A DNA stretch of 64,000 nt from Nonomuraea angiospora (GTDB lineage: Bacteria > Actinomycetota > Actinomycetes > Streptosporangiales > Streptosporangiaceae): positions 620,001 to 684,000 of the forward strand of contig NZ_JADBEK010000001.1 in the NCBI RefSeq assembly GCF_014873145.1. Reading direction: 5' to 3'. This document shows, in pieces, positions 11,823 to 34,111 of the stretch. Position numbers and translations under genes: made by a program. Position 1 is the stretch's first letter; each line of letters begins with the position of its first letter. The notes under the pieces were generated by a model. That model saw only the letters and a list, made by a program, of their open reading frames with translations. It ran no database searches and was not told the DNA's origin.

Positions 11823-12910
11823 TCAATCCACCCCCCGGTCCGCGCCGAGGTCAGGACGGCCTCGCAGATGGCGGCGGCTCGGGCGCCGTCCGCGAACACC
11901 GGCAACCCGTCACGATGCTCGTCACGGAGCGCGGCGTAGGTGTCGGCGACGAAGGCGTCGAAGCAGTCATGGTAGCCCTGAGGGTGTCCGGCCGGGAGCG
12001 GCGAATACGGCTGGGCCGCCTCGGAAAGGATCGCCGGGTCGCGCAGGAGCGTCCGCGATCCGCTGCGGTCGCCGACCCAGAGAAGCTCGGGCTGTTCCTG
12101 GTCGAACGCGAGGCTCGCCTCGGTGCCTGAGATCTCCAGGAACAGGCGGTTCTTGCGGCCCGGGGAGACCTGGCTCGTGGCCAGCGTGCCGACGGCCCCT
12201 GAGGCGGTGCGGAACTGGACGGTCGCCACGTCCTCCGTCACGACGGGCGCGTTGGTCGCCCGGCTGGACTGGACGATGGCGGTCTGCGCGCAGACGCTGA
12301 CGATGCGGTCGGCGGTGACGAACTCCGCCAGGTCGCACCAGTGGGAGCCGATGTCGGCGAATGTCCGGCTGGGCCCGCCGAGCTCGGGGTCCACCCGCCA
12401 GTTGTCGTCGTCCGGGCGGAGCAGCCAATCCTGCAGATAGCTTCCCTGGATCAAGCTGATCCTGCCGATGTCACCGCGGGCGACCCGTTCCCGCGCCTCC
12501 CGCACCATGGCGTGGAAGCGGTACACGAACGGCACCGTCGCGACCAGTCCCGCCTCGGCCGCCCGGCCCGCCATGAGCGCGGCGGTCATCGCGTCGCCGG
12601 CCAGCGGTTTCTCGCAGACGACGGCCAGCCCGGCCGACAGCGCTTTGAGGACGAATGGGGCGTGGAGATGGTTGGGGGTGCAGATATGCACCAGATCGAT
12701 CTCGCCCGACTCGATGAGCTCGTCGGCCGAGGCGAAGACCCTGGCAGCACCCAGTCCAGCCTCCTGCGCCTTCTCTAATCGCGATCCGGCCACCCCGGCG
12801 ATCGTTGCCCCGGCCATGCGCGCGGCGCGGGCATGCACCCGGCCCATGAAACCGGTGCCGACGATCCCTACACGCGGAGCATCATCCGGTTTCCGGCTTA
12901 TGTCCCTCAT
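11816..12910 (-). CDS. Gfo/Idh/MocA family NAD(P)-dependent sugar oxidoreductase
   Basis: The N-terminal Rossmann motif is GIVGTGFMGRVHA, close to the start, and the family EKPLAGD motif (VVCEKPLAGD) follows. The ADIGSHWCDLAEF segment carries the conserved Asp and His of the active site. A start at 13057 is also open, but it would overlap the divergent ROK gene and add an unrelated extension. The ATG at 12910 gives 364 residues, the usual family length. A promoter (TTGACC, 18 nt, TAGCAT) ends just upstream, so the transcript is nearly leaderless. As first gene of the operon it probably oxidises the imported sugar or cyclitol. Confidence 0.92.
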   Translation of the reverse strand: MRDISRKPDDAPRVGIVGTGFMGRVHARAARMAGATIAGVAGSRLEKAQEAGLGAARVFASADELIESGEIDLVHICTPNHLHAPFVLKALSAGLAVVCEKPLAGDAMTAALMAGRAAEAGLVATVPFVYRFHAMVREARERVARGDIGRISLIQGSYLQDWLLRPDDDNWRVDPELGGPSRTFADIGSHWCDLAEFVTADRIVSVCAQTAIVQSSRATNAPVVTEDVATVQFRTASGAVGTLATSQVSPGRKNRLFLEISGTEASLAFDQEQPELLWVGDRSGSRTLLRDPAILSEAAQPYSPLPAGHPQGYHDCFDAFVADTYAALRDEHRDGLPVFADGARAAAICEAVLTSARTGGWIEC

Positions 12911-12918
12911 GTTGCCGG

Positions 12919-12948
12919 ATGCTAGATCGCACTTATGCCGACGGTCAA
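12919..12948 (-). promoter_or_regulatory. Putative sigma-A promoter of the sugar operon
   Basis: On the minus strand TTGACC (12943-12948) and TAGCAT (12919-12924) are separated by 18 nt. The predicted start point falls 1-3 nt before the ATG of the oxidoreductase gene. The promoter lies in a 71-bp region shared with the divergent ROK regulator, where autoregulation is plausible. Confidence 0.5.
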
Positions 12949-12970
12949 GCAAAAGTTGAAGCGTAAATGG

Positions 12971-12976
12971 CATAAT
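12971..12976 (+). promoter_or_regulatory. Putative -10 element of the ROK regulator gene
   Basis: CATAAT ends 6 nt before the ATG at 12982, which would make the mRNA leaderless. This explains why no Shine-Dalgarno sequence is seen there. No good -35 is visible at 17 nt. It sits face to face with the operon promoter. Confidence 0.35.
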
Positions 12977-12981
12977 GGCGC

Positions 12982-14223
12982 ATGAGGGATCATAGGAAGT
13001 GTGCATCTCTCGACGAAATGGAGCGCTTGTTGACTGAGAGCATGCTGACCGGCACAAGCAGCCCGGCGGCCGGAGCGGGGGCTCTGCTCTCGCTCCTGCG
13101 CGACGGGCGGGCCCGCACCCGCGCTGAGCTGGTCGAGCTCACCGGCCTGGCGCGGTCCACGGTGTCCCTCCGCCTCGACGCCTTGCTGAGTCAGCGCTGG
13201 GTGGTGCCGGCCGACGACGTGATCTCCTCTGGCGGCCGTCCGGCGACGGCGTTCGCCTTCAACAAGAGTGCGCGGATCGTACTCGCGGCTGACCTGGGTG
13301 CGACGCACGCCAGGCTCGCCGTGACCGACCTGGCGGCCACGATGCTGGCCGAGCAGGAAGTGGAGATGCCCATCGCCCGCGGTCCGGAGGCCGTGTTGAC
13401 CTGGCTCGTGGGCGCCTTCCGCGAGCTCCTCACCGAATGCGACCGCCGTCTCGCCGACGTGTGCGGAGTCGGCGTCGGCCTGCCGGGTCCGGTGGAGCAT
13501 GACACCGGCAAGCCGGTCAACCCGCCGATCATGCCCGGCTGGGACGGTTTTCCCGTGCCTGACTGGCTCGGCGCTCGACTTGGTGTCCCTGTGCTGGTCG
13601 ACAATGACGTGAACATGATGGCGCTGGGTGAATACTGGGCCGGGCGGTCCGGGGCCGAGCACCTCATCTACGTCAAGATCGGCACCGGCATCGGCTGTGG
13701 CATCATCAGCGGCCGCAGCCTGCACCGCGGTGCGCAAGGTGCGGCGGGGGACATCGGCCACATCCGGGTGCCCTCGTCCGAGGAGAACGTGGTGTGCCGC
13801 TGTGGCAACGTCGGCTGCCTGGAGGCCGTGGCGGGCGGCGCGGCGCTGGCCGCACGCCTCCACGCGGCAGGCCACGAGACCGCCGACAGCCGCGACGTCG
13901 TACGCCTGGTGCGTGCGGGCAACACCGAGGCCATCCAGCTGGTCCGGCAGGCAGGCCGGGAGGTCGGCGTCGTCCTGGCCTCCATTGTGAACTTCTTCAA
14001 CCCAGCCGTGATCTTGATCGGCGGTGACCTCGCGGGAGCGGGCGAGCACCTGCTCGCCGGGCTTCGAGAGGTGATTTACAGCAGGTCCCTGCCCCTCGCC
14101 ACCCAGCATCTGAGCATTCGTGTCAGCGAGCTCGGCGACCGGGCGGGGGTGGTCGGCGCGGCGGTGATGATGATCGAGCACATGCTGTCGCCGGAGGCCG
14201 TGGACCAGGCGTTGTCGGCCTGA
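12982..14223 (+). CDS. ROK family transcriptional regulator
   Basis: A protein of 413 residues with an N-terminal winged helix-turn-helix (about 45-72; TRAELVELTGLARSTVSLRL) and a ROK sugar-kinase-like domain from about residue 98 (LAADLGATHARLAV). The kinase-fold signature GVGVGLPGPVEH and DNDVNMMALGEY are present, as is the zinc motif CRCGNVGCLE. It is divergent from the sugar operon at 12910-1513 with a 71-bp shared control region, so it most likely represses that operon until a sugar or sugar phosphate binds. Internal ATGs at 13018 and 13042 are alternative starts, but the upstream CATAAT favours 12982. Confidence 0.92.
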   Translation: MRDHRKCASLDEMERLLTESMLTGTSSPAAGAGALLSLLRDGRARTRAELVELTGLARSTVSLRLDALLSQRWVVPADDVISSGGRPATAFAFNKSARIVLAADLGATHARLAVTDLAATMLAEQEVEMPIARGPEAVLTWLVGAFRELLTECDRRLADVCGVGVGLPGPVEHDTGKPVNPPIMPGWDGFPVPDWLGARLGVPVLVDNDVNMMALGEYWAGRSGAEHLIYVKIGTGIGCGIISGRSLHRGAQGAAGDIGHIRVPSSEENVVCRCGNVGCLEAVAGGAALAARLHAAGHETADSRDVVRLVRAGNTEAIQLVRQAGREVGVVLASIVNFFNPAVILIGGDLAGAGEHLLAGLREVIYSRSLPLATQHLSIRVSELGDRAGVVGAAVMMIEHMLSPEAVDQALSA

Positions 14224-24279: not shown

Positions 24280-24372
24280 ACCGGTAAGCGTACATACCAG
24301 GAGGCGAAGGCCTGGACGGGCGGCTCCTGCGGCCGGGCTCGGTGGGCTGCTGCTGGTCGGGGCTGCTGGTGG

Positions 24373-24606
24373 GCACTCTGCCCGCACGGTCCGCATCCAC
24401 CGCTCGGCATAGCGGTTCGCCCGCCGCGTCAGCGGCGGCGTCCTCGCCACCGTCACGCCCTCGCCGGTGAGGACTTCGTCGAAGACGGCGGTGAACTTGG
24501 TGTCTCGATCGCGGATGACGAAACGGTAGGAGCTGATCCGGTCGCCGAAGTCCATGGGCAGGTTGCGGGCCGTCTGTGCCGTCCAGGCGCCGGTCGGGTG
24601 TGCTGA
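24373..24606 (-). mobile_element. Integrase/transposase remnant (rve type), left copy
   Basis: The minus-strand frame encodes [20 protein letters not shown], then [11 protein letters not shown] and [13 protein letters not shown]. This is the middle of a DDE integrase-core transposase common in actinomycetes. Both ends are missing and it is fused in frame to the region upstream of the lacI-type gene. A second remnant of the same family in the same orientation lies at 30232-30462. Confidence 0.75.
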
Positions 24607-24777
24607 GCATGCGTCCGGTGGGGGAGCGGTCGTCGCCTGGCAGCCCCAGGCAGAGGACGAGCGGGGACAGGTCATCGAGGTGCACGCCGACCGCGGCCCA
24701 GGCCGAGCGGCGGGCGTCCGCGCCGCCTTCGCCCGCGTGCGGCAGAGGAGAGGCGCCAGGAAACCGCGGACCGGGCG

Positions 24778-25770
24778 TTACCAGACGGTCTGTACGGGTC
24801 CGTCAAGCTGTGGTGGGCGGGTTCGCACCAGGTCGGTCAGGGCGGTGCCGGTCTCGCGGGTGATGGGGCCGGTGGGTTCGAGGCCGAGGCGGTGCGCGAG
24901 ATCGGCTGACTGGAGGTGGGCGGTGGCCTCCACCAGGAGTGCGTACATATCGCAGGCGGTGCGGGCGCGCCGCCAGGCCGTCACCAGCACGGCGGCGGCG
25001 ATCGGCAGGCCGGGCCACCACAGGGCGGCGACGGCGAGGTAGAGCAGGCCCCATCCGGCCAGCGTGGTGGCGCGGGTGAGGGTCTCGCGGGCGGCGATGA
25101 TCTCCGTGCGGGTGGTGTCCGGGGCGGTGAGCCAGAGGTACGGCCAGACCGTGGCGAGGTCGAGGCCGAGGTCGCGGTTGAGCCGGACGGTGGCGTCGTT
25201 GAGCCGGTCGCCCATCCAGGTGGGGCGCGTGGGCGGTTCGGCGGCGATCCGCAAGATCTTCCGGTGGGCGAGTTCGCGCGGGGACGGCAGCGGGCTGGAG
25301 AGCGCCGGTCCGGGGCGAGCCGGTATCGGCGGGTTCGCGGCGAGCCGAGCTCGGACATGGGCGGCCGCGGCCTTCTCGCGGGTCTCGTGATAGTTCGATA
25401 CCGCCTCTGTCCAGCGGCGGTGCCGGCCGCGGGTGCGAAGCGCGGCGAGTTGGCGGAGCGGGGGCGGCCAGCCGGCCCAGTCGGCGGCCAGCCAGAGGCG
25501 TTCGACCAGGCTGCCAAGGCTCTGGGCGGTCAGGCCGGCGGTGGCCGCGGCCAGCAGGTACGCGCCGAGGAGGGCGAGTCCCGCCGCCGAGGCGGCATCC
25601 GCGTCCACTGTTTCGAGACGGTCGGTCACACGGCGGGCGTCGAACGGGTGGGCATGCCCCAGCGCGTGGGCGGCGGCGAGGGCGGCGACGTACAGCAGGC
25701 CCGGCAGGACGAGCAGCGTGAACCAGCGGTCGGCGATCTTCTTGCCGAGCTCGGCGAGCAGTCCGCCCAT
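24778..25770 (-). CDS. Membrane protein of unknown function, CHAT-module neighbour
   Basis: A 330-residue product. Hydrophobic helices are seen near residues 15-35, 60-80 and 250-285, flanking a charged central part (about 110-235) that carries a predicted amphipathic stretch with many Arg and Ala. No known domain was recognised. The ATG lies 3 bp after the stop of the 25774-26157 gene, so the two are translated together. Both are divergent from the CHAT-TPR gene. Membrane proteins beside caspase-like effectors are a recurring theme in bacterial conflict systems, so a role as membrane sensor or effector is conceivable. This is inference from position only. Confidence 0.75.
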   Translation of the reverse strand: MGGLLAELGKKIADRWFTLLVLPGLLYVAALAAAHALGHAHPFDARRVTDRLETVDADAASAAGLALLGAYLLAAATAGLTAQSLGSLVERLWLAADWAGWPPPLRQLAALRTRGRHRRWTEAVSNYHETREKAAAAHVRARLAANPPIPARPGPALSSPLPSPRELAHRKILRIAAEPPTRPTWMGDRLNDATVRLNRDLGLDLATVWPYLWLTAPDTTRTEIIAARETLTRATTLAGWGLLYLAVAALWWPGLPIAAAVLVTAWRRARTACDMYALLVEATAHLQSADLAHRLGLEPTGPITRETGTALTDLVRTRPPQLDGPVQTVW

Positions 25771-25773
25771 CTG

Positions 25774-26157
25774 TTACGGCAACCGTTCGAGCAGCATCGA
25801 GGTCTCGTCGATCTCGCACGTGGGCGCGGCCGAAGCACCGGGCTCTGGCCACTGGTAGCGGGCGCAGCGGCGGTGCGGGCACGTGTACAGGGTCTCGGGA
25901 GGGGCAGCGGCGGTGATGCCGGCCAGGCGGACGGAGCGAGCGGAGCCGCCGTACACGCCGAGCACGTCCCCGCCTGCCAGCAAGGCCTCGTGCAGGTCGT
26001 CGAGAGGCCGTGTGACGTCGCTGCCGTCGCGGATCGCGGCCAGGAGCCGGTCGAGAGGCGCCCGGTCGCCGAGGTGGTCGAGTTGGGCACGCAGGTCGGG
26101 AAGGTTGCCGCACACGTACGCGATGGCGGCGCTGACACGCTCAGATAACCCAGCCAT
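25774..26157 (-). CDS. Small Cys-containing protein of unknown function, CHAT-module neighbour
   Basis: The ATG at 26157 has GAGGGG about 5 nt upstream and gives 127 residues; an earlier in-frame start at 26205 is less likely. The N-terminal two thirds look alpha-helical (VSAAIAYVCGNLPDLRAQLD, then LDDLHEALLAGGDV). The C-terminus has CPHRRC followed about 15 residues later by another Cys (APTCEID), a partial zinc-ribbon-like pattern. Similar short proteins with a CPxxRC tail occur beside actinomycete CHAT and effector-associated genes in my recollection, but I cannot name the family. It could be an adaptor in the CHAT module. Confidence 0.65.
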   Translation of the reverse strand: MAGLSERVSAAIAYVCGNLPDLRAQLDHLGDRAPLDRLLAAIRDGSDVTRPLDDLHEALLAGGDVLGVYGGSARSVRLAGITAAAPPETLYTCPHRRCARYQWPEPGASAAPTCEIDETSMLLERLP

Positions 26158-26210
26158 TCCGCCCCTCTTGGAACACCACTGTGGAGCCGTACCGAAAGTT
26201 AGCATCAGGC

Positions 26211-29200
26211 ATGCGCGAACAGTACCTCGCCGCCGTGCGGGCGCACCTGGAGCGGGTCACCGCGACGAAGGATCTGTCCGCGGTCGTTCACCCGAGTGTG
26301 CCGGGCGACCTCCAGCGGCTGGCGGGCCTGCTGCGCGACGGCGACGGCGACACCGAAGCGCGGCTCGCGCTCGGCTGGCTGCACTACTACCGCTATCTCG
26401 CCTTGCCCGAAGGACCGGACCGGGACGAGTTGCGGTCGGCCGTCACCGCCCTGCTCGACTGCTTCGTCGTCGGCGTCGAACCCCTGCCCGACCAGCTCCT
26501 TCCCATCCTGGCAGACCTCGCGACCTCCTTCGGCGACCAGGTGCTGCGGCACGCGATCGCCTCGAGCGACCCCGACGCCGCGGAGGCCGCCGTCGAGTTG
26601 TGGCAGCGCATCACGCTCGCGGCGAGCGACGACGACCCCGAGTGGGAGACGTACTCGTCGAACCTGGGGCTGGCTCTGCGGATCCGATACGACCTGACGG
26701 GCCGGCGCGAGGACCTCGACCTGGCCGTCGACATCTTCCGCCATGCTGCCGGCAACGTCCCCGCTGATCACCCCCATCGACCGGAACACCTCAACCGGCT
26801 CGGCCGCGCGCTACAGGACCGATCGGCGTCTGCCGAAGATCTGGACGGCGCCGTCGCCGCAGGTCGCGAAGCCGTCGAGCTCGCGCCGCCCGACCACCCC
26901 AACCGGCATGCCTACCTCGGTAACCTCGGCAACGCCTGGCGCGCCCGATACGGACTTACGCAGACGCCCGGGGATCTGGACGCGGCGATCGGCACCATCC
27001 GGCAAGCCGTACAGGCCGCCCCGGCCCCGGGCCCGGATCGAGCGGGTTACCTGTCCATTCTCGGAGCCCTCCTGGCCACGCGCTACGAACGCTTCCTGCG
27101 GCGTGCGGATCTCGACGCGGCTGCCGAGGCGTTGCGCGAGTCGGCCGACACCGGGCCGGATGACGCGTCGCGGCACTACAACCTGGGCGTGGTCCTGTAT
27201 CGGAGGTTCGAGCGGTCAGGAGAACGGGCCGACCTCGACGGCGCCGTGGACGCCTATCGCCGGGCGACCGACCTCGTCCCCGGCCGGGGCGGATGGCTGA
27301 ACAACCTCGGCGCCGCGCTGCGGATCCGGTTCGACCGTACGGGAAACTTGGCGGATCTGGAGGCCGCCGTGCGGGCCGGGCGGCAGGCCGCCGAGTTGGA
27401 GCCCGTCGATCCGGTGGCGCTGACCAACCTCAGCGTTACGTTGATGACGAGCTTCCGCCGCACCGGGAAGCGCACAGATCTCGACGACGCCGTTGACGTG
27501 GCCGACCAGGCCGTGGCCGCCATGCCGCCTGACCTGCCTGGCCGGGCCGGCATCTTGAACAACCTCTGCTTGGCCCTGGTGACACGCGCCGAGCGGACCG
27601 GATCCGCCGAGGACCTCGCGCGGGCCGTCACCACGGCGCGGCAAGCCGTCGCCGCCTCACCGCCCGAGGATCCCGACAGGCCGAACCGGCTGGGCAATCT
27701 CATGAGCGCCTTGCGCCTGCGATTCGAGCGCACCGGCGACATGGAGGACATCGATGAGGCCGTACGCGCCGGTCAGACCGCCGTGAATGCCGTACGCGAA
27801 GACGACGGCGCTCGCGGCGAGCACTTGAGCAATCTCGGCGGCACGCTGCAGCGGCGCTTCGAGCGCACGTCCCGGATGAGCGACTTGGACGCGGCCATCG
27901 ACGCCGCACGGCGTGCCGTCGAGGTGACCCCCGACGATCACCCCGCCCGGGCCCGGTACCTGGCGAACCTGGGAGTCGCGTGGCACAAGCGGTTCGACGT
28001 CACGCGCGCGCCACGCGACGTGGAGACCGCCATTGACGCCCTCCGGCGGGCCATCGAGGCCACGCCCGCGGATCACCCGGAACGGTCCGGCCAGCTGTCG
28101 AACCTCGGCAACGCGCTGCGGGCCGCCGACCGGATCGACGACGCCGTCACCGCGTTGCGGGAAGCCGTGGCTCTCACCCCGGTCGATCAGCCGGACCACC
28201 CCGGATACCTGTCCAACCTGGGGCATGCGCTGGCGGTGCGGTACTGGCGCACCGGATCAGGAGCGGAGGAGGCGTTGGCGGCCTACCAGGAGGTCGTCGA
28301 TGATCCGCTCGCCATGCCCGCCATGCGGATCAGAGCCGCCCGGCTCGCCGCCGAGTTGGCCCGCGACCAGTGGCCGGGTCTCGCGGCGGATCTGCTGGAG
28401 ACGGCGGTCCGCCTGTTGCCGGAGGTCACGCCCCGGCGCCTGCACCGCCGCGATCGCCTGTACCACCTCAGCCTGTTCCGCGGCCTGGCCGACGACGCGG
28501 CCGCCCTCGCCTTGGAAGCCGGCGAGCGGACGGGCGATGGGCCGGCGGCCGCGGTGCGGGCCTTGCGGCTGCTGGAGGCTGGGCGGGCGGTGCTGCTCGG
28601 ACAGTTGCTGGAGACCCGAGGCGACCTGTCCGACCTCGAACGCGACCACCCTTCCCTCGCCGACCGATTCGCCCGTTTACGCGGCGAACTGGACGCCGAT
28701 CACCTCACCAGGGACGACCGGGTCCGGCTGACGAGCGAGTTCACGGCGCTGGTGGGGGAGATCCGCAGCCGTGACGGCTTCAGGACGTTCATGGCGCCGC
28801 CGGAGCCGGAGGACCTGATCGCGGAGGCGAGGTCGGGACCCGTCGTCGTGTTCACCATCAGCAGCTACCGTAGCGACGCCCTCATCCTCACCGGCAGCGG
28901 CATCACCTGCCTCCCGCTGCCGCTGCTGGCCGCGAACGCGGTCATCCAGCAGTTCCATACGTTTACCGACGCCTTGAACGAGTCCGCTGACCGGGAGGCG
29001 GGCTGGCAGGACCGGGTGGCGGCACAGGACACCCTGCACGAGGTGCTGGAGTGGCTGTGGGACGCCGCCGCCGGGCCAGTGCTGGACGTGCTGGGCCTTG
29101 ACCGCCTGTCCGGCGCCGATCTGCCGAGGGTGTGGTGGGTCACCGGCGGCATGCTCGGCACGCTCCCCCTGCACGCCGCAGGCCACCACCGCGGCGGCGG

Positions 29201-29960
29201 GCCGTCGGTCATGGACAGGGTCGTCTCCTCCTACACCCCGACCATCGGAGCACTGCGACACGCCCGCCGCTCCACCAAACCGGGCGTCGGCCGGACGCTG
29301 ATCGTGGCCATGCCGGAAACGCCGGACCAGGATCCGCTGCCCAACGCCGCCGTCGAGGCCGAGCGGCTCCACGAGCGGATGCCGGACGCGCTGTCACTGA
29401 CCGGCACTGCGACCAGGGCACAGGTGCTGGCGGCGTTGCCGGAGTGCACGATCGCGCACTTCGCCTGCCACGGCGTGAGCGACCTCGCCGACCCCTCCGA
29501 AAGCAGGCTGCTGCTGCGCGACCACGACAGCGCGCCGCTCACCGTCTCCAGCCTGGCCTCCGTCAACCTGGAGCGGGCAGAGCTGGCGTACCTGTCGGCG
29601 TGCTCCACGGCACTCATGTCAGTGGTCACGCTCGGCTCGGTCGAGCTCGACCCGGCCTTGCGGGCCGAGCTGCCCGACCTCGCCGCCGCCGTGTTGGCCG
29701 TCAACCAGAACGCCGATCTGGTCGACGAGGCCATCCATCTCTCCTCGGCCTTCCAGCTCGCCGGGTTCCGGCATGTCGTCAGCACCCTTTGGGAAATTGA
29801 CGACGCGGCGGCCGTGCAACTCGCAGACGACTTCTACGCCGGGTTGCGCGGTGATGCCGGGAGTTCGGCGCGTGCTTTGCACGACGCCGTGCGGGCACTG
29901 CGCGACAGGCGCCCGCGCCTGCCCTCCCTCTGGGCCTCTTACCTGCACGCGGGAGCGTAG
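26211..29960 (+). CDS. TPR-CHAT protein (caspase-like peptidase with about 13 tetratricopeptide-like repeats)
   Basis: A product of 1,249 residues counted from the ATG at 26211 (a GTG at 26181 adds 10). From about residue 145 there are about 13 repeats of 42-47 residues. Typical units are NLGAALRIRFDRTGNLADLE and NLGGTLQRRFERTSRMSDLD, each followed by an A-V-x-A-x-R-x-A-V helix. The C-terminal third is a CHAT domain with the catalytic pair His1087 (AHFACHG) and Cys1131 (YLSACSTA), then DEAIHLSSAFQLAGFRHVV and TLWEIDD. CHAT peptidases are relatives of caspases and separases, and many act in programmed cell death or anti-phage defence. The divergent membrane and Cys-rich genes suggest a three-gene conflict module. 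The trigger and target are unknown. Confidence 0.92.
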   Translation: MREQYLAAVRAHLERVTATKDLSAVVHPSVPGDLQRLAGLLRDGDGDTEARLALGWLHYYRYLALPEGPDRDELRSAVTALLDCFVVGVEPLPDQLLPILADLATSFGDQVLRHAIASSDPDAAEAAVELWQRITLAASDDDPEWETYSSNLGLALRIRYDLTGRREDLDLAVDIFRHAAGNVPADHPHRPEHLNRLGRALQDRSASAEDLDGAVAAGREAVELAPPDHPNRHAYLGNLGNAWRARYGLTQTPGDLDAAIGTIRQAVQAAPAPGPDRAGYLSILGALLATRYERFLRRADLDAAAEALRESADTGPDDASRHYNLGVVLYRRFERSGERADLDGAVDAYRRATDLVPGRGGWLNNLGAALRIRFDRTGNLADLEAAVRAGRQAAELEPVDPVALTNLSVTLMTSFRRTGKRTDLDDAVDVADQAVAAMPPDLPGRAGILNNLCLALVTRAERTGSAEDLARAVTTARQAVAASPPEDPDRPNRLGNLMSALRLRFERTGDMEDIDEAVRAGQTAVNAVREDDGARGEHLSNLGGTLQRRFERTSRMSDLDAAIDAARRAVEVTPDDHPARARYLANLGVAWHKRFDVTRAPRDVETAIDALRRAIEATPADHPERSGQLSNLGNALRAADRIDDAVTALREAVALTPVDQPDHPGYLSNLGHALAVRYWRTGSGAEEALAAYQEVVDDPLAMPAMRIRAARLAAELARDQWPGLAADLLETAVRLLPEVTPRRLHRRDRLYHLSLFRGLADDAAALALEAGERTGDGPAAAVRALRLLEAGRAVLLGQLLETRGDLSDLERDHPSLADRFARLRGELDADHLTRDDRVRLTSEFTALVGEIRSRDGFRTFMAPPEPEDLIAEARSGPVVVFTISSYRSDALILTGSGITCLPLPLLAANAVIQQFHTFTDALNESADREAGWQDRVAAQDTLHEVLEWLWDAAAGPVLDVLGLDRLSGADLPRVWWVTGGMLGTLPLHAAGHHRGGGPSVMDRVVSSYTPTIGALRHARRSTKPGVGRTLIVAMPETPDQDPLPNAAVEAERLHERMPDALSLTGTATRAQVLAALPECTIAHFACHGVSDLADPSESRLLLRDHDSAPLTVSSLASVNLERAELAYLSACSTALMSVVTLGSVELDPALRAELPDLAAAVLAVNQNADLVDEAIHLSSAFQLAGFRHVVSTLWEIDDAAAVQLADDFYAGLRGDAGSSARALHDAVRALRDRRPRLPSLWASYLHAGA

Positions 29961-30231
29961 CCGATCATGAGAGCTTTCTGGTGGTCTCTCTTCCGTGCTG
30001 AACAGGGCGCGCCGGCCGTCCGCGAGATGGCGGCACGCCAACCCGTCGCCGTCAGGGTGTCGTGCAACCGGCGCAGATCCCGCATGCGGGTCTCGTACGT
30101 CGCCTCGACCACCATGCGCAGCAGCCCGCATCGGGCTCCGGCGAACAGCACCGCCGGCGCCAGCATGCCGAGCGCCGGCGACCGCCGCCATTCCGTGCCC
30201 GAGTAGACCACCACCAGGCTGGACAAGGGTG

Positions 30232-30462
30232 GGACTGGTGCGGCCGGTGCCTGTTGTAGTGGATCAGGTACTCGTGGAGCAGGACGGCCAGGTGGTGTTC
30301 GTTGAGGATCAGGATGCGGTCCAGGAGTTCGTGGCGCAGGGTGCCGATGACGCGCTCGCAGACGGCGTTCATCCTCGGCGTTCGCGGCGGCGTTGTGCGG
30401 TCACCCAGGTCCATGGCGAGGTTGCGGGCCTGCTGCACCGTCCACGCTCCGGTCGGGTGCGG
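30232..30462 (-). mobile_element. Integrase/transposase remnant, right copy
   Basis: The minus-strand frame reads HPTGAWTVQQARNLAMDLGD and then jumps directly to RTPRMNAVCERVIGTLRHE and YLIHYNRHRPHQS, the C-terminal end of the integrase core. About 50 middle residues are deleted. With the left copy at 24373-24606 it brackets the CHAT module. Nothing recognisable lies between it and the CHAT stop (29961-30231) or the following flavoprotein gene (30463-30640). Confidence 0.75.
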
Positions 30463-30640
30463 GGTCACTCCGGCCAGGTGCAGTCGCCGGATCGATACCC
30501 GCCGCGTGCCTTTGCTTACGCGCTACAAGATTGCGGTGCCAGCGCAAGATTGTCGCCGCTGTGCCATGAACGGGTATGAAGCGCACCTCTACCAGCTCCC
30601 GCCCGAGATGGACGACGGCTGGAGCCCGCACTCCAGCGGC

Positions 30641-32023
30641 TCACAGTTGGTCGGCCAGCCGCCGGGCCGCGACCTGTACGATGTCCCACGCGGTGGCGAA
30701 CGGCGGCGCGTAGGACAAGTCAGACCAGGCTAAGTCGTCAACGGTCGCGCCGTGCCACAACGCGGTGGCAACGGTGTCGATACGTTTGCCGGCGCCACGC
30801 CCGCCAACGATCTGCGCGCCCATCAGCCGATGATCCGACCGCGCTGCCAGCAACTTCACCGCGACCGGGTCGGCTTCGCTCATGTAGCCGCTGGCCGTGC
30901 TGCCTTCGGTGACCAGGGAGGTCACCTCGATGCCTGCGGCGGCTGCCTCACGCTCATTCAGGCCGGTGCGGGCGATCTCCAAGTAGGTCGGGCCCTCAGC
31001 GAATCGGGTGATCGCAGTGCCCAGCACGCCGCCGAACCGCAGCGCGCCTGGTGTGACGAGGTTGGTGCCGACGATCCGGCCCTGTTTGTTGGCATGGGTG
31101 CCGAGCGGCATGTAGGTCCACGTGCCGGTGAGCCGATGCCGGGTCTCGCAGCAATCACCGGCCGCCCAGATCCCGTCGGCCAGGCTCCCGTCCGGCTCGG
31201 GTCGCAAACCGCCAGTTGGGCCGCTCGGCAACTTGTCGAGGTCAAGGTAACCGGTGTTCGGCGTGACCCCCAGCGCCAGCACGACCAAGTCCGCCGGATA
31301 GCGCTCGCCTTCTGCGGTGTACACGCCACGCACTCGTCCGTCCGCCACGTCCAGCCGCACGACCGGTGAGCCGACCACGACCCGGACTCCCGCCTCGTGC
31401 ATCCCCTTCTCGATCCGAGCGGACAGGTCCGGGTCCAGGGAACTCATCACCCGAGTCCGGGTGATCACGGTGACCTCGCAGCCACGCCTCCTGGCGGCCT
31501 CGGCCATCTCGACGCCGATGTAGCCGCCGCCGGCGACGACCACCCGGCCACTGCCCTTGGGCAGTCTCATGAGCAGGTCCAACCAGGCAGCGCCGTCGGT
31601 GAGCGTTTTGACCGGCGCGACGCCGGCATACCGTTGCCCTGTGCCGGGGTGGACGGCCCAGTCCGGCACCACGGCCGACGCACCGGTCGCGATCACCAGC
31701 TCGTCGTAGCCCAACACCTGCTCACCGTCGGCATCCCGGTAGGTGACGGTGCGGGCCTGTCGGTCGATCCCGGTCGCGGTGGCGCCGAGCCGCAGGTCGA
31801 TCCCGGCTGCCCGGTGCTCCTCGGCGGTGCGGGCCACCAGGACGTTGCCACTGGACACGTCTCCGGCGACCCAGTAGGGGATGCCACAGGCGGAGTACGA
31901 CGTATCGCCGGTCGCCTCCAGCGCGGTCACAGCCAGCTTGGTCCCGGCCGCCCGGATCGCCTGGTGCGCCGCACTCATCCCTGCTGCATCGGCTCCAATG
32001 ACCAGCAGACGGGTGGCGCTCAC
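30641..32023 (-). CDS. FAD-dependent CoA-disulfide reductase / NADH oxidase-like flavoprotein
   Basis: A 460-residue pyridine-nucleotide-disulfide oxidoreductase. The FAD motif is LLVIGADAAGMSAA at the N-terminus. Cys46 in SYSACGIPYW matches the single active-site Cys of CoA-disulfide reductases and NADH oxidases. The NAD motif is VVVAGGGYIGVEMAEAA, and ADGIWAAGDCCE contacts FAD. The C-terminal dimerisation domain (GAQIVGGRGAGKRIDTVA) is complete. It would reduce CoA disulfide, a persulfide or oxygen with NAD(P)H in the cytoplasm. It stands alone between an integrase remnant and the FHA-FAD gene on the same strand. Substrate choice inside the family cannot be read here. Confidence 0.9.
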   Translation of the reverse strand: MSATRLLVIGADAAGMSAAHQAIRAAGTKLAVTALEATGDTSYSACGIPYWVAGDVSSGNVLVARTAEEHRAAGIDLRLGATATGIDRQARTVTYRDADGEQVLGYDELVIATGASAVVPDWAVHPGTGQRYAGVAPVKTLTDGAAWLDLLMRLPKGSGRVVVAGGGYIGVEMAEAARRRGCEVTVITRTRVMSSLDPDLSARIEKGMHEAGVRVVVGSPVVRLDVADGRVRGVYTAEGERYPADLVVLALGVTPNTGYLDLDKLPSGPTGGLRPEPDGSLADGIWAAGDCCETRHRLTGTWTYMPLGTHANKQGRIVGTNLVTPGALRFGGVLGTAITRFAEGPTYLEIARTGLNEREAAAAGIEVTSLVTEGSTASGYMSEADPVAVKLLAARSDHRLMGAQIVGGRGAGKRIDTVATALWHGATVDDLAWSDLSYAPPFATAWDIVQVAARRLADQL

Positions 32024-32119: not shown

Positions 32120-34111
32120 CTACCGGGGAGCCTGCGCCGTTGGCCGTGGCGATCGGCTCGCCGACCGGGAGATCAGCCTGGTGTGCTGTTCGCGCTCGCT
32201 GGCGAGTCGTGGAGCCCACACAGGTTCTCCACCCGAAGCGGACGCGGGCTCCTCGCGGTAGAAGATGTCGATGTCGACCTCTTCACCGCCCATGACCACT
32301 GTGTCCCACGCGTCGCTGATGACCAGGATGCGCAGAGTCTCAGCCGACAGCCGGCCGAGGTGGGCACGCAGGGCGGCGTCGTCGGGCAGGCCGGAGACGC
32401 GCTGCGACAGGCGGCCCCGGACGATCCCGAGCCGGTTCATCAGTGTGTCGATGTCCGCCGCGACCTGCGCGTCGGAACTCGGAGCGGCCTGCGCGCCGGC
32501 GCAGCCCTTGGCGATGTTGTCCTTGATGGCACGGGTGACGCCGTCCTTGTCGGTAGCGACCATCGCCTGCCAGGCACGGCTCTTGTGCCGGTACTGGAGC
32601 ATCGCCATGGCTGCCTCGTGGCGGATGAAGTCCGCGTCGCGGAAGGCCCGCCCGCGCCAGGCCTGGCTGAGCGACCGGGCCAGGGAGATGGCCGAGGCCA
32701 GCCCGCTGTTGAGCCCGCGCCCCGGCCAGAAGTGGATGGCGTTGGCGGCGTCGCCGAGCAGGAAGCCGTAGGTGCCCGGAGTGGCGGACGTAGGGGCGTG
32801 CAGGCGCGCGGTGAAGCGCGGCCGCTGCACCATGTCGAGCCGGAAGGCGGTGACGGCGCTGAGGTTGTACTCGGCCACGCCGAACATCGCCAGCCCTTCC
32901 TTCACCCGCCGCCACAGGGCGGACCCTTTGATCAGGGCGGGCAGGAACAAGGTGCCGTGAGTGGAGCAGTGGAAGTCTCCGTCGTCGGTGCGGCCCATCA
33001 TGCACGGGCTGGCGGCGACACACTCCTCGAACACGCGACGGACGGGATCGATGCCGATGACCTCCTCGGCCTCCTCGTCGGTGAGTCGCATGTTGAGGAA
33101 ACCCTCGCCGCCCAGGGCGTTGAGCAGGTAGCGGTTCTGGGCCACGGTCAGCAGGACCGACATGGCGTCAGGCAGGTCGGACTTGACGCGTAAGCCCAGC
33201 ACGACATCCTGCAGGTGCCTGCCGTTCAGGGAGTAGATCGAGCTGTCGGCGATGCCGAACTTGCCGGTGAAATGCTCCCGCGTGCGCGAACGGCCACCCT
33301 CGCAGATGGCTAGCACATGATCCTGCTTCGCGCTGTCGCCATGCTCGTCGGGATCGAAGCGCGTGGGGACGAGCCGGATGCGGTCGGACTTCTCGCCGGC
33401 CATCTCCAGGAGCGTGTCCTCGATGTAGGCGATGCGGAGGTTACGCGGGGCTTGTCCTCGGATGGAGTCGGGGCCGGGCGGCCACATCTCGGAGTACGCC
33501 CCGGGCTTGAACAGCCGAGCCTGCACCGGGCCGGGGAGGTTCAGGTACTGGCGGCTCTGAACCGTGACGACCTGCTGGCGCCGTACATTTCCCTGGTCTT
33601 GCCCTTTCCACGCGACCTGAGCACCATCCTGGGTCCAGCGGCCGTCGTAAACAGTGACGACGACCCGTGATCCCATGAGGTGCTCCAGGAGGAGCGCGAA
33701 GCTCAGCCCGACAGGCCCACCGCCGGAGACGGTCACCCGGAGTACCGGCCCCGGATCGACCGATGGGGCGGATCCCTTCCCCTGCGGCAGCGGGGACGCG
33801 CCGTAGACCGTCGCGACGTCGTCGGAGGGCAGGAAGCGGAACTGCTCGTCGCCGATCGTGATCAGGTCGCCCGGTTGGAGCACCTGTGAGGTGACGCGCC
33901 TGCCGTTGACCAGCGTTCCGTTTCGGCTTCCCAGGTCGTACAGGATGTAACGCCCTGCCTCGTGGCGTATCTCGGCGTGGCGGCGCGAAGCTCGCTCGCT
34001 GGAGAGCACCACGCCGCAGTCTTGCCTGCGGCCGAAGGTGGTCGGCGTGTCACCGAGCGGGAAGTGGCGGTCGGTGAGGGGGCCGTCGTGTCCGACGATG
34101 GAAGGGGGCAT
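32120..34111 (-). CDS. FHA domain fused to FAD-dependent monooxygenase-like oxidoreductase
   Basis: A 663-residue product; the ATG follows GGAAGG. Residues about 20-98 form an FHA phosphothreonine-binding domain with all key positions: FGRRQDCGVVL, SERASRRHAEI and LGSRNGTLVNGRRV. After a short linker there is a Rossmann FAD motif (VTVSGGGPVGLSFALLLE, about 127-144). Far downstream is the FAD-contact motif LLGDAANAIHFWPGRGLNSG (451-470), as in aromatic hydroxylases and halogenases. A charged C-terminal tail completes it. FHA domains recruit phosphorylated partners, so a flavoenzyme controlled by a Ser/Thr kinase is implied. No kinase gene is in the window. This architecture is not one I know as a standard family. 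Confidence 0.85.
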   Translation of the reverse strand: MPPSIVGHDGPLTDRHFPLGDTPTTFGRRQDCGVVLSSERASRRHAEIRHEAGRYILYDLGSRNGTLVNGRRVTSQVLQPGDLITIGDEQFRFLPSDDVATVYGASPLPQGKGSAPSVDPGPVLRVTVSGGGPVGLSFALLLEHLMGSRVVVTVYDGRWTQDGAQVAWKGQDQGNVRRQQVVTVQSRQYLNLPGPVQARLFKPGAYSEMWPPGPDSIRGQAPRNLRIAYIEDTLLEMAGEKSDRIRLVPTRFDPDEHGDSAKQDHVLAICEGGRSRTREHFTGKFGIADSSIYSLNGRHLQDVVLGLRVKSDLPDAMSVLLTVAQNRYLLNALGGEGFLNMRLTDEEAEEVIGIDPVRRVFEECVAASPCMMGRTDDGDFHCSTHGTLFLPALIKGSALWRRVKEGLAMFGVAEYNLSAVTAFRLDMVQRPRFTARLHAPTSATPGTYGFLLGDAANAIHFWPGRGLNSGLASAISLARSLSQAWRGRAFRDADFIRHEAAMAMLQYRHKSRAWQAMVATDKDGVTRAIKDNIAKGCAGAQAAPSSDAQVAADIDTLMNRLGIVRGRLSQRVSGLPDDAALRAHLGRLSAETLRILVISDAWDTVVMGGEEVDIDIFYREEPASASGGEPVWAPRLASEREQHTRLISRSASRSPRPTAQAPR

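Follow-up and report, generated by a model that had tools for sequence, protein, structure and literature searches.

A horizontally moving three-gene locus of actinomycetes that joins a TPR-CHAT peptidase to two partner families, a candidate conflict module

The described systems closest to the locus reported here are those in which a caspase-like protease is found with a partner protein. The locus lies in Nonomuraea angiospora, within a stretch of 64,000 nucleotides (positions 620001-684000 of the single 13.09-Mb contig; hereafter the window), and encodes a tetratricopeptide repeat (TPR)-CHAT peptidase, a membrane protein (P1) and a small protein with a C-terminal cysteine motif (P2). By its protease, the trio is closest to CATRA systems, whose partner, CATRA, was reportedly described in conflict systems by Burroughs and Aravind in 2020; the partner arm differs, P1 and P2 being present and CATRA absent from the window. 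In gasdermin operons, genes for caspase-like or CHAT proteases stand beside the gasdermin gene. The trio resembles them in logic only, in that a possible membrane-active protein is encoded next to a protease; however, the membrane segments of P1 are hydrophobic and presumably helical, and Pfam gives no gasdermin match for it. PMC9729208 mentions gasdermin cleavage. In the type III-E CRISPR Craspase (Csx29 with its substrate Csx30), the TPR-CHAT protease acts on a substrate encoded next to it. The trio resembles Craspase in the TPR array, the CHAT domain with a His-Cys dyad and the adjoining partner genes; however, it comprises three genes only, its partners are P1 and P2, and the Csx29 model NF041237 matches the window protein weakly (39.6 bits, below the cut-off of 300). 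In Canu caspase-nuclease systems, a caspase-family protease activates a partner from the same locus by cleavage (PMC12799240). A caspase-family protease with a same-locus partner is likewise found in the trio, activation by cleavage being a property of Canu, but a nuclease-like partner is not. We find that CHAT, P2 and P1 form a conserved unit that moves horizontally among actinomycetes.

The genes of the unit and its presumed catalytic residues are laid out in the window as follows.

24778..25770, minus strand: P1, membrane protein of 330 residues (open reading frame translation, hydrophobicity, alignment of homologues)
25774..26157, minus strand: P2, protein of 127 residues with a C-terminal three-cysteine motif, CPx3C...C (open reading frame translation, motif)
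26158..26210, no strand: divergent intergenic region of 53 bp (gene coordinates)
26211..29960, plus strand: TPR-CHAT peptidase, 1,249 residues from the ATG at 26211 (open reading frame, Pfam)
29469..29471, plus strand: His codon, H1097, in the motif HFACHG, presumed catalytic (alignment)
29601..29603, plus strand: Cys codon, C1141, in the motif YLSACST, presumed catalytic (alignment)

The open reading frame (ORF) of the CHAT protein spans 26181-29960 on the plus strand and yields 1,259 residues from a GTG at 26181, the numbering used for H1097 and C1141, or 1,249 from the ATG. For P2, a longer ORF starting at 26205 is also possible. An initial annotation, made from the letters of the window, had read here a TPR-CHAT protein of 1,249 residues with an intact His/Cys pair, and ORF, Pfam match and alignment agree on it; the two divergent side genes and the 53-bp gap also lie where it placed them. 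The gap presumably holds putative promoters for both transcription units.

The unit is defined by co-occurrence. Scanning genomes with an alignment of P1 gave at least 80 loci, on which the counts over 80 loci below rest, and P2 and CHAT were sought at these loci with iterated profiles, CHAT being counted at E <= 1e-3. The gene-neighbourhood survey proposed in the initial annotation thereby returned P2 directly upstream of P1 in 80/80 loci and a CHAT ORF in the stretch in 71/80 (the weakest, in L068, at 7e-6), several loci being interrupted by contig ends. By arithmetic from eight CHAT matches in 13.09 Mb, the chance of a CHAT in a random 16-kb interval is ~1%, as against the 71/80 observed. 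In 87 of 88 loci, the P1 start lies between -4 and +10 bp from the P2 stop, with P1 starts taken as profile borders. Of the 71 loci with CHAT, 52 have the best-scoring one upstream of P1 and divergent from it, the arrangement seen in the window; in the remainder it is downstream (12 on the strand of P1, five on the other strand) or upstream on the strand of P1 (two). There is no recurrent fourth gene: among 44 linked loci, no other family was matched in more than four other loci (ORFs of at least 100 residues, excluding those overlapping CHAT or P1/P2). Furthermore, 20 P1 places fetched from the genus, two of them in the genomes of L010 and L063, have P2 in 19 and CHAT in 18, one CHAT-less place ending at a contig end. 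P2-P1 is thus shown to be a tightly coupled pair beside a TPR-CHAT that is nearly always of one clade.

This clade can be recognized in a tree of 116 CHAT domains, built with a quick method, in which 89/89 CHAT rows from P1 loci lie behind a single branch (SH-aLRT, the Shimodaira-Hasegawa-like approximate likelihood ratio test, 100; length 1.23). Among these rows are that of the window, those of two duplicated genomes and the second CHATs of L020 and L023. The same branch also holds nine rows labelled unlinked, one of which, L112, was later linked to P1/P2 (L174). The genome of N. angiospora has eight CHAT matches; the seven besides that of the window all fall outside the linked clade, and none of their regions (L137-L143) has a P1 or P2 match (0/7). 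The window protein matches CHAT (PF12770) with 150.5 bits against a curated cut-off of 24 (E 8.9e-44) and several TPR models, including TPR-S (PF20308, 'Tetratricopeptide Repeats-Sensor', E 7.3e-13). In the alignment, both dyad residues, His and Cys, occur in 89/89 P1-linked CHATs, the window protein among them, and are presumed to be catalytic. Across 86 loci, the median share of residues identical to the window is 0.50 for CHAT, 0.42 for P1, 0.34 for P2 and 0.28 for the TPR part, where P2 lacked a blast hit in six loci, counted as 0, and the TPR part in two. The length of the TPR part ranges from 640 to 1,727 residues in 85/87. Because the TPR part is fast-changing and variable in length and the peptidase is conserved, the roles of sensor and protease, respectively, fit the two.

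Neither P1 nor P2 of the window reaches a cut-off in Pfam, NCBIfam or PADLOC. Likewise, 71 P1 homologues compared with Pfam, NCBIfam and PADLOC, and 68 P2 homologues compared with Pfam and PADLOC, gave nothing beyond single weak hits, and the same homologues had no hit in PADLOC-DB 2.0.0 at E up to 0.01. The profile searches thus bear out the earlier statement that the side genes belong to no nameable family; the idea that they are special to this site does not stand, as they occur in many actinomycete genera. The hosts of the P1 loci are mostly Streptomyces, with Nonomuraea, Microbispora, Nocardia, Kribbella, Actinomadura, Dactylosporangium, Catenulispora, Rhodococcus, Amycolatopsis and others, and among the distant P1 relatives of a profile search (best 120 of 227, with 8,000 candidates scored) the named hosts are all actinomycetes. 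In the average over 71 homologues, the hydrophobicity of P1 peaks at residues 19-37, 64-82 and 245-263. The third peak lies within a stretch of ~30 residues, with two near-invariant tryptophans, then an invariant proline and after it a conserved arginine, which may form a hairpin. Between the second and third peaks is a conserved region with the motif RPTWxGDR...WPxLWL, in which P180, D188, W209 and P210 are invariant; this large domain is presumably cytosolic. Moreover, aromatic and small residues are conserved within and beside the hydrophobic segments, suggesting a role for them beyond anchoring. P2 keeps CPx(2-6)C...C in 80/80 loci. The weak matches were not believed: Phage_holin_3_6 for one of 71 P1 homologues (E 0.0086), AmoC for P1 (E 0.12), Crust_neuro_H for P2 (E 0.017, under the cut-off), and DUF6468 and Crust_neuro_H for one P2 homologue each. 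Two protein families that have no model in the libraries searched and occur at 80 or more loci are thereby added to the partners of bacterial caspase-like proteases.

The genomic setting shows that the trio moves as a unit. The features concerned are these.

24807..29964, no strand: three-gene cassette common to Nonomuraea basaltis, where it lies at another site, 87% DNA identity (blastn)
24336..30593, no strand: block foreign to the flanks, containing the trio and both integrase remnants (ends of flank homology)
about 24373..24600, minus strand: left integrase-like remnant (translation; 82% identity over 62 bp to the right remnant)
about 30260..30480, minus strand: right integrase remnant, rve_3 (Pfam, plasmid matches)

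When the whole window is compared with the 17-kb N. basaltis locus (L010) by blastn at E 1e-10, the cassette is the sole match and consists of the three genes and nothing else. Homology of the flanks stops at the block: the LacI-side flank is 88-97% conserved in five genus genomes and its match ends at 24331-24336 in 5/5 fetched, and the oxidoreductase flank, 87-98% conserved in the five genomes fetched for it, starts to match at 30593-30643 in 5/5. In addition, a Streptomyces plasmid of 372 kb carries a complete trio, the 19-kb stretch that contains it also encoding IS5, IS3 and IS6 transposases, and P1 relatives occur in 12 plasmid records, three of them spanning at least 80% of P1. The N. 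basaltis cassette, the flank homology stops and the plasmid copy mark the trio as mobile. It is neither fixed nor syntenic in the genus: it has been transferred between sites, and P1 matches are found in 21/54 genus genomes including this one (two only at E 1e-5 to 1e-4) and in 3/296 phylum genomes including this one, a scan of limited sensitivity in which seven candidates per genome were scored. One genus genome (G027) carries a decayed CHAT fragment (L192, 7952-8917) with ~91% DNA identity to that of the window, which lacks the stretch of the catalytic His and has no P1/P2 matches nearby. The initial annotation had also described integrase fragments of one family and orientation on either side; indeed, both are on the minus strand and their 62-bp similarity has an E of 4.6e-14. 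The right one matches rve_3 (PF13683, E 8.7e-13) and also 19 plasmid records; eight rows of these were listed, and two of the eight bear the annotation 'integrase core domain-containing protein'. For the left one, Pfam gives nothing up to E 0.01, and its single plasmid match is unannotated. The extent of the block is consistent with transfer by that element. Of the mobile module proposed earlier, the mobility stands; the integrase fragments bracket the block, and nothing shows that they moved the trio. The expected clean presence or absence between the remnants was not seen, no single clean empty site being found among the fetched genus genomes. The flanks (a LacI-type regulator and a disulphide oxidoreductase) are separated by ~111 kb in G031, with their order unchanged, and lie on different contigs in G029; since the G031 flanks are so far apart, the site has also been rearranged and no one empty site can be demonstrated. 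As a compact mobile unit of three genes, the trio is directly testable.

The same protease clade has a second partner within the genus. A CHAT-domain search of the genus gave 35 genes above 100 bits, of which 21 have a P1 match within ~6 kb. Near the 14 P1-less ones there is no P2 match; one of the 14 is the decayed fragment L192, and in another locus (L189) a weak P1 match lies beside a second CHAT. CATRA adjoins the CHAT in five of these 14 loci, three confirmed by Pfam and all five by a profile built from those three: L181 (8281-13142), L183 (8109-13027), L184 (6951-12257), L185 (3672-8542) and L186 (4253-9162) each combine CATRA with a same-clade TPR-CHAT. A sixth locus, L188, has a weak CATRA match. 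The five CHATs linked to CATRA group together in one clade (SH-like support 99), which a FastTree tree with several long branches nests within the P1/P2-linked CHATs; because of this nesting one protease clade couples to either P1/P2 or CATRA, a partner swap within the genus. This swap makes it testable which partner senses and which executes. Ten other neighbouring ORFs of unlinked CHATs comprise one MFS, one trypsin and one ABC match and seven without a match. Near an unlinked clade CHAT in L182, the ORF at 12351-13589 encodes a trypsin-like peptidase, possibly another partner arrangement.

We consider the trio to be an actinomycete conflict module of three components that moves horizontally and in which P1 and P2 are the substrate or effector arm, with a probability of roughly 0.45. 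It would act as a defence or self-destruct switch, and we infer every step beyond the intact protease dyad. The fast-changing TPR superhelix would sense a signal derived from invasion or stress and release an autoinhibited CHAT peptidase. The cysteine knuckle of P2, probably a zinc knuckle, would serve to dock P1 to the peptidase or to keep it silent. Once active, CHAT would cut P1 and/or P2, and P1 would then disturb the membrane of the cell, with death or growth arrest of the infected compartment as the result. P1 and P2 would thus take the place that gasdermin or Csx30 has beside other caspase-like proteases, and the trio would represent a variant, so far undescribed, of the caspase/TPR conflict systems, one in which the membrane effector or switch is P1/P2. 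No description of it was recognized in the literature searched, a search outside which the CATRA source paper (Burroughs and Aravind 2020) falls. A more specific version, in which the TPR-CHAT, a caspase/separase-like protease, switches on a helical, non-gasdermin P1 via P2 as cysteine-knuckle adaptor, P1/P2 and CATRA are interchangeable arms attached to a single protease clade and the whole is an undescribed cell-death system of actinomycetes, comparable in bacteria to membrane killing driven by caspases, is possible but doubtful. If P1 is a protease-activated membrane effector, bacteria would have another route to caspase-triggered membrane killing beside gasdermin.

Several observations weigh against the conflict-module reading. 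CHAT is absent from the stretch in 9/80 P1/P2 loci and 14/35 similar genus CHATs lack a nearby P1, and hence the partnership is not obligatory. Separate conservation of the three genes, named earlier as evidence against a module, is accordingly seen in part for CHAT and not for P1 and P2. All nine genomes with a CHAT-less locus have CHATs elsewhere, and at two of these loci, L021 and L089, reading of the neighbouring ORFs (no family scan) disclosed no replacement effector, as they looked unrelated. One P1/P2-linked CHAT (L172, the same gene as in L095) lies outside the main clade, its P1/P2 matches being weak. PADLOC-DB 2.0.0 gives no hits for the three window proteins at E up to 1. No relatives were found in phage or viral collections, and a phage or viral origin was rejected on that ground. 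Finally, PDB relatives by sequence are not credible for P1 or P2 (best E 0.41 and 0.22), and membrane damage by P1 and zinc binding by P2 are therefore guesses.

The same proteins could be arranged in the opposite order, with P1 as a membrane sensor or anchor, P2 as an adaptor and the TPR-CHAT as the executioner, cutting cellular proteins upon a report of envelope damage or infection. The large conserved P1 domain between hydrophobic segments would suit a receptor, transcription of P2-P1 is separate from that of CHAT where the two are divergent (52/71 loci), and five of the nine genomes with a CHAT-less locus (two being Nocardia abscessus) have a clade CHAT elsewhere, which is compatible with action in trans. 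However, sensors usually diverge fastest, and P1 is better conserved than the TPR part. Moreover, the TPR-CHAT of Craspase acts on a substrate whose gene is adjacent. Overall, we regard this arrangement as rather unlikely. Lower still in our estimate is developmental or housekeeping proteolysis, in which the trio would regulate hyphal differentiation or envelope stress instead of conflict. The hosts are actinomycetes, many of which are filamentous and sporulate, and the lack of copies in phage and viral collections agrees with such a role, but the patchy presence of P1 in the genus and phylum (within the limited sensitivity stated for the latter), the transfer from site to site, the plasmid copy near transposases and the decayed CHAT remnant are more typical of accessory conflict genes. 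Equally improbable, in our view, is that the trio is the described CATRA-type caspase/TPR ternary system with P1 and P2 already noted as accessory parts. Although same-clade CHATs adjoin CATRA in five genus loci, the CATRA profile has no match in the window or in 92/94 fetched stretches with P1 and CHAT (some overlapping or duplicate), and CATRA has a Pfam entry, whereas P1 and P2 reach no Pfam cut-off. That three unrelated accessory genes came together by chance amid insertion-sequence scars, as the integrase remnants on either side might suggest, is already refuted by the 80/80 and 71/80 co-occurrence over many genera, the borders of the N. basaltis cassette and the plasmid copy.

Elsewhere, no Rfam family reaches its gathering score in the window. 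Beyond the block, at 32120-34111 on the minus strand, lies an ORF of 663 residues that has an FHA domain and weakly matches an FAD-binding family.

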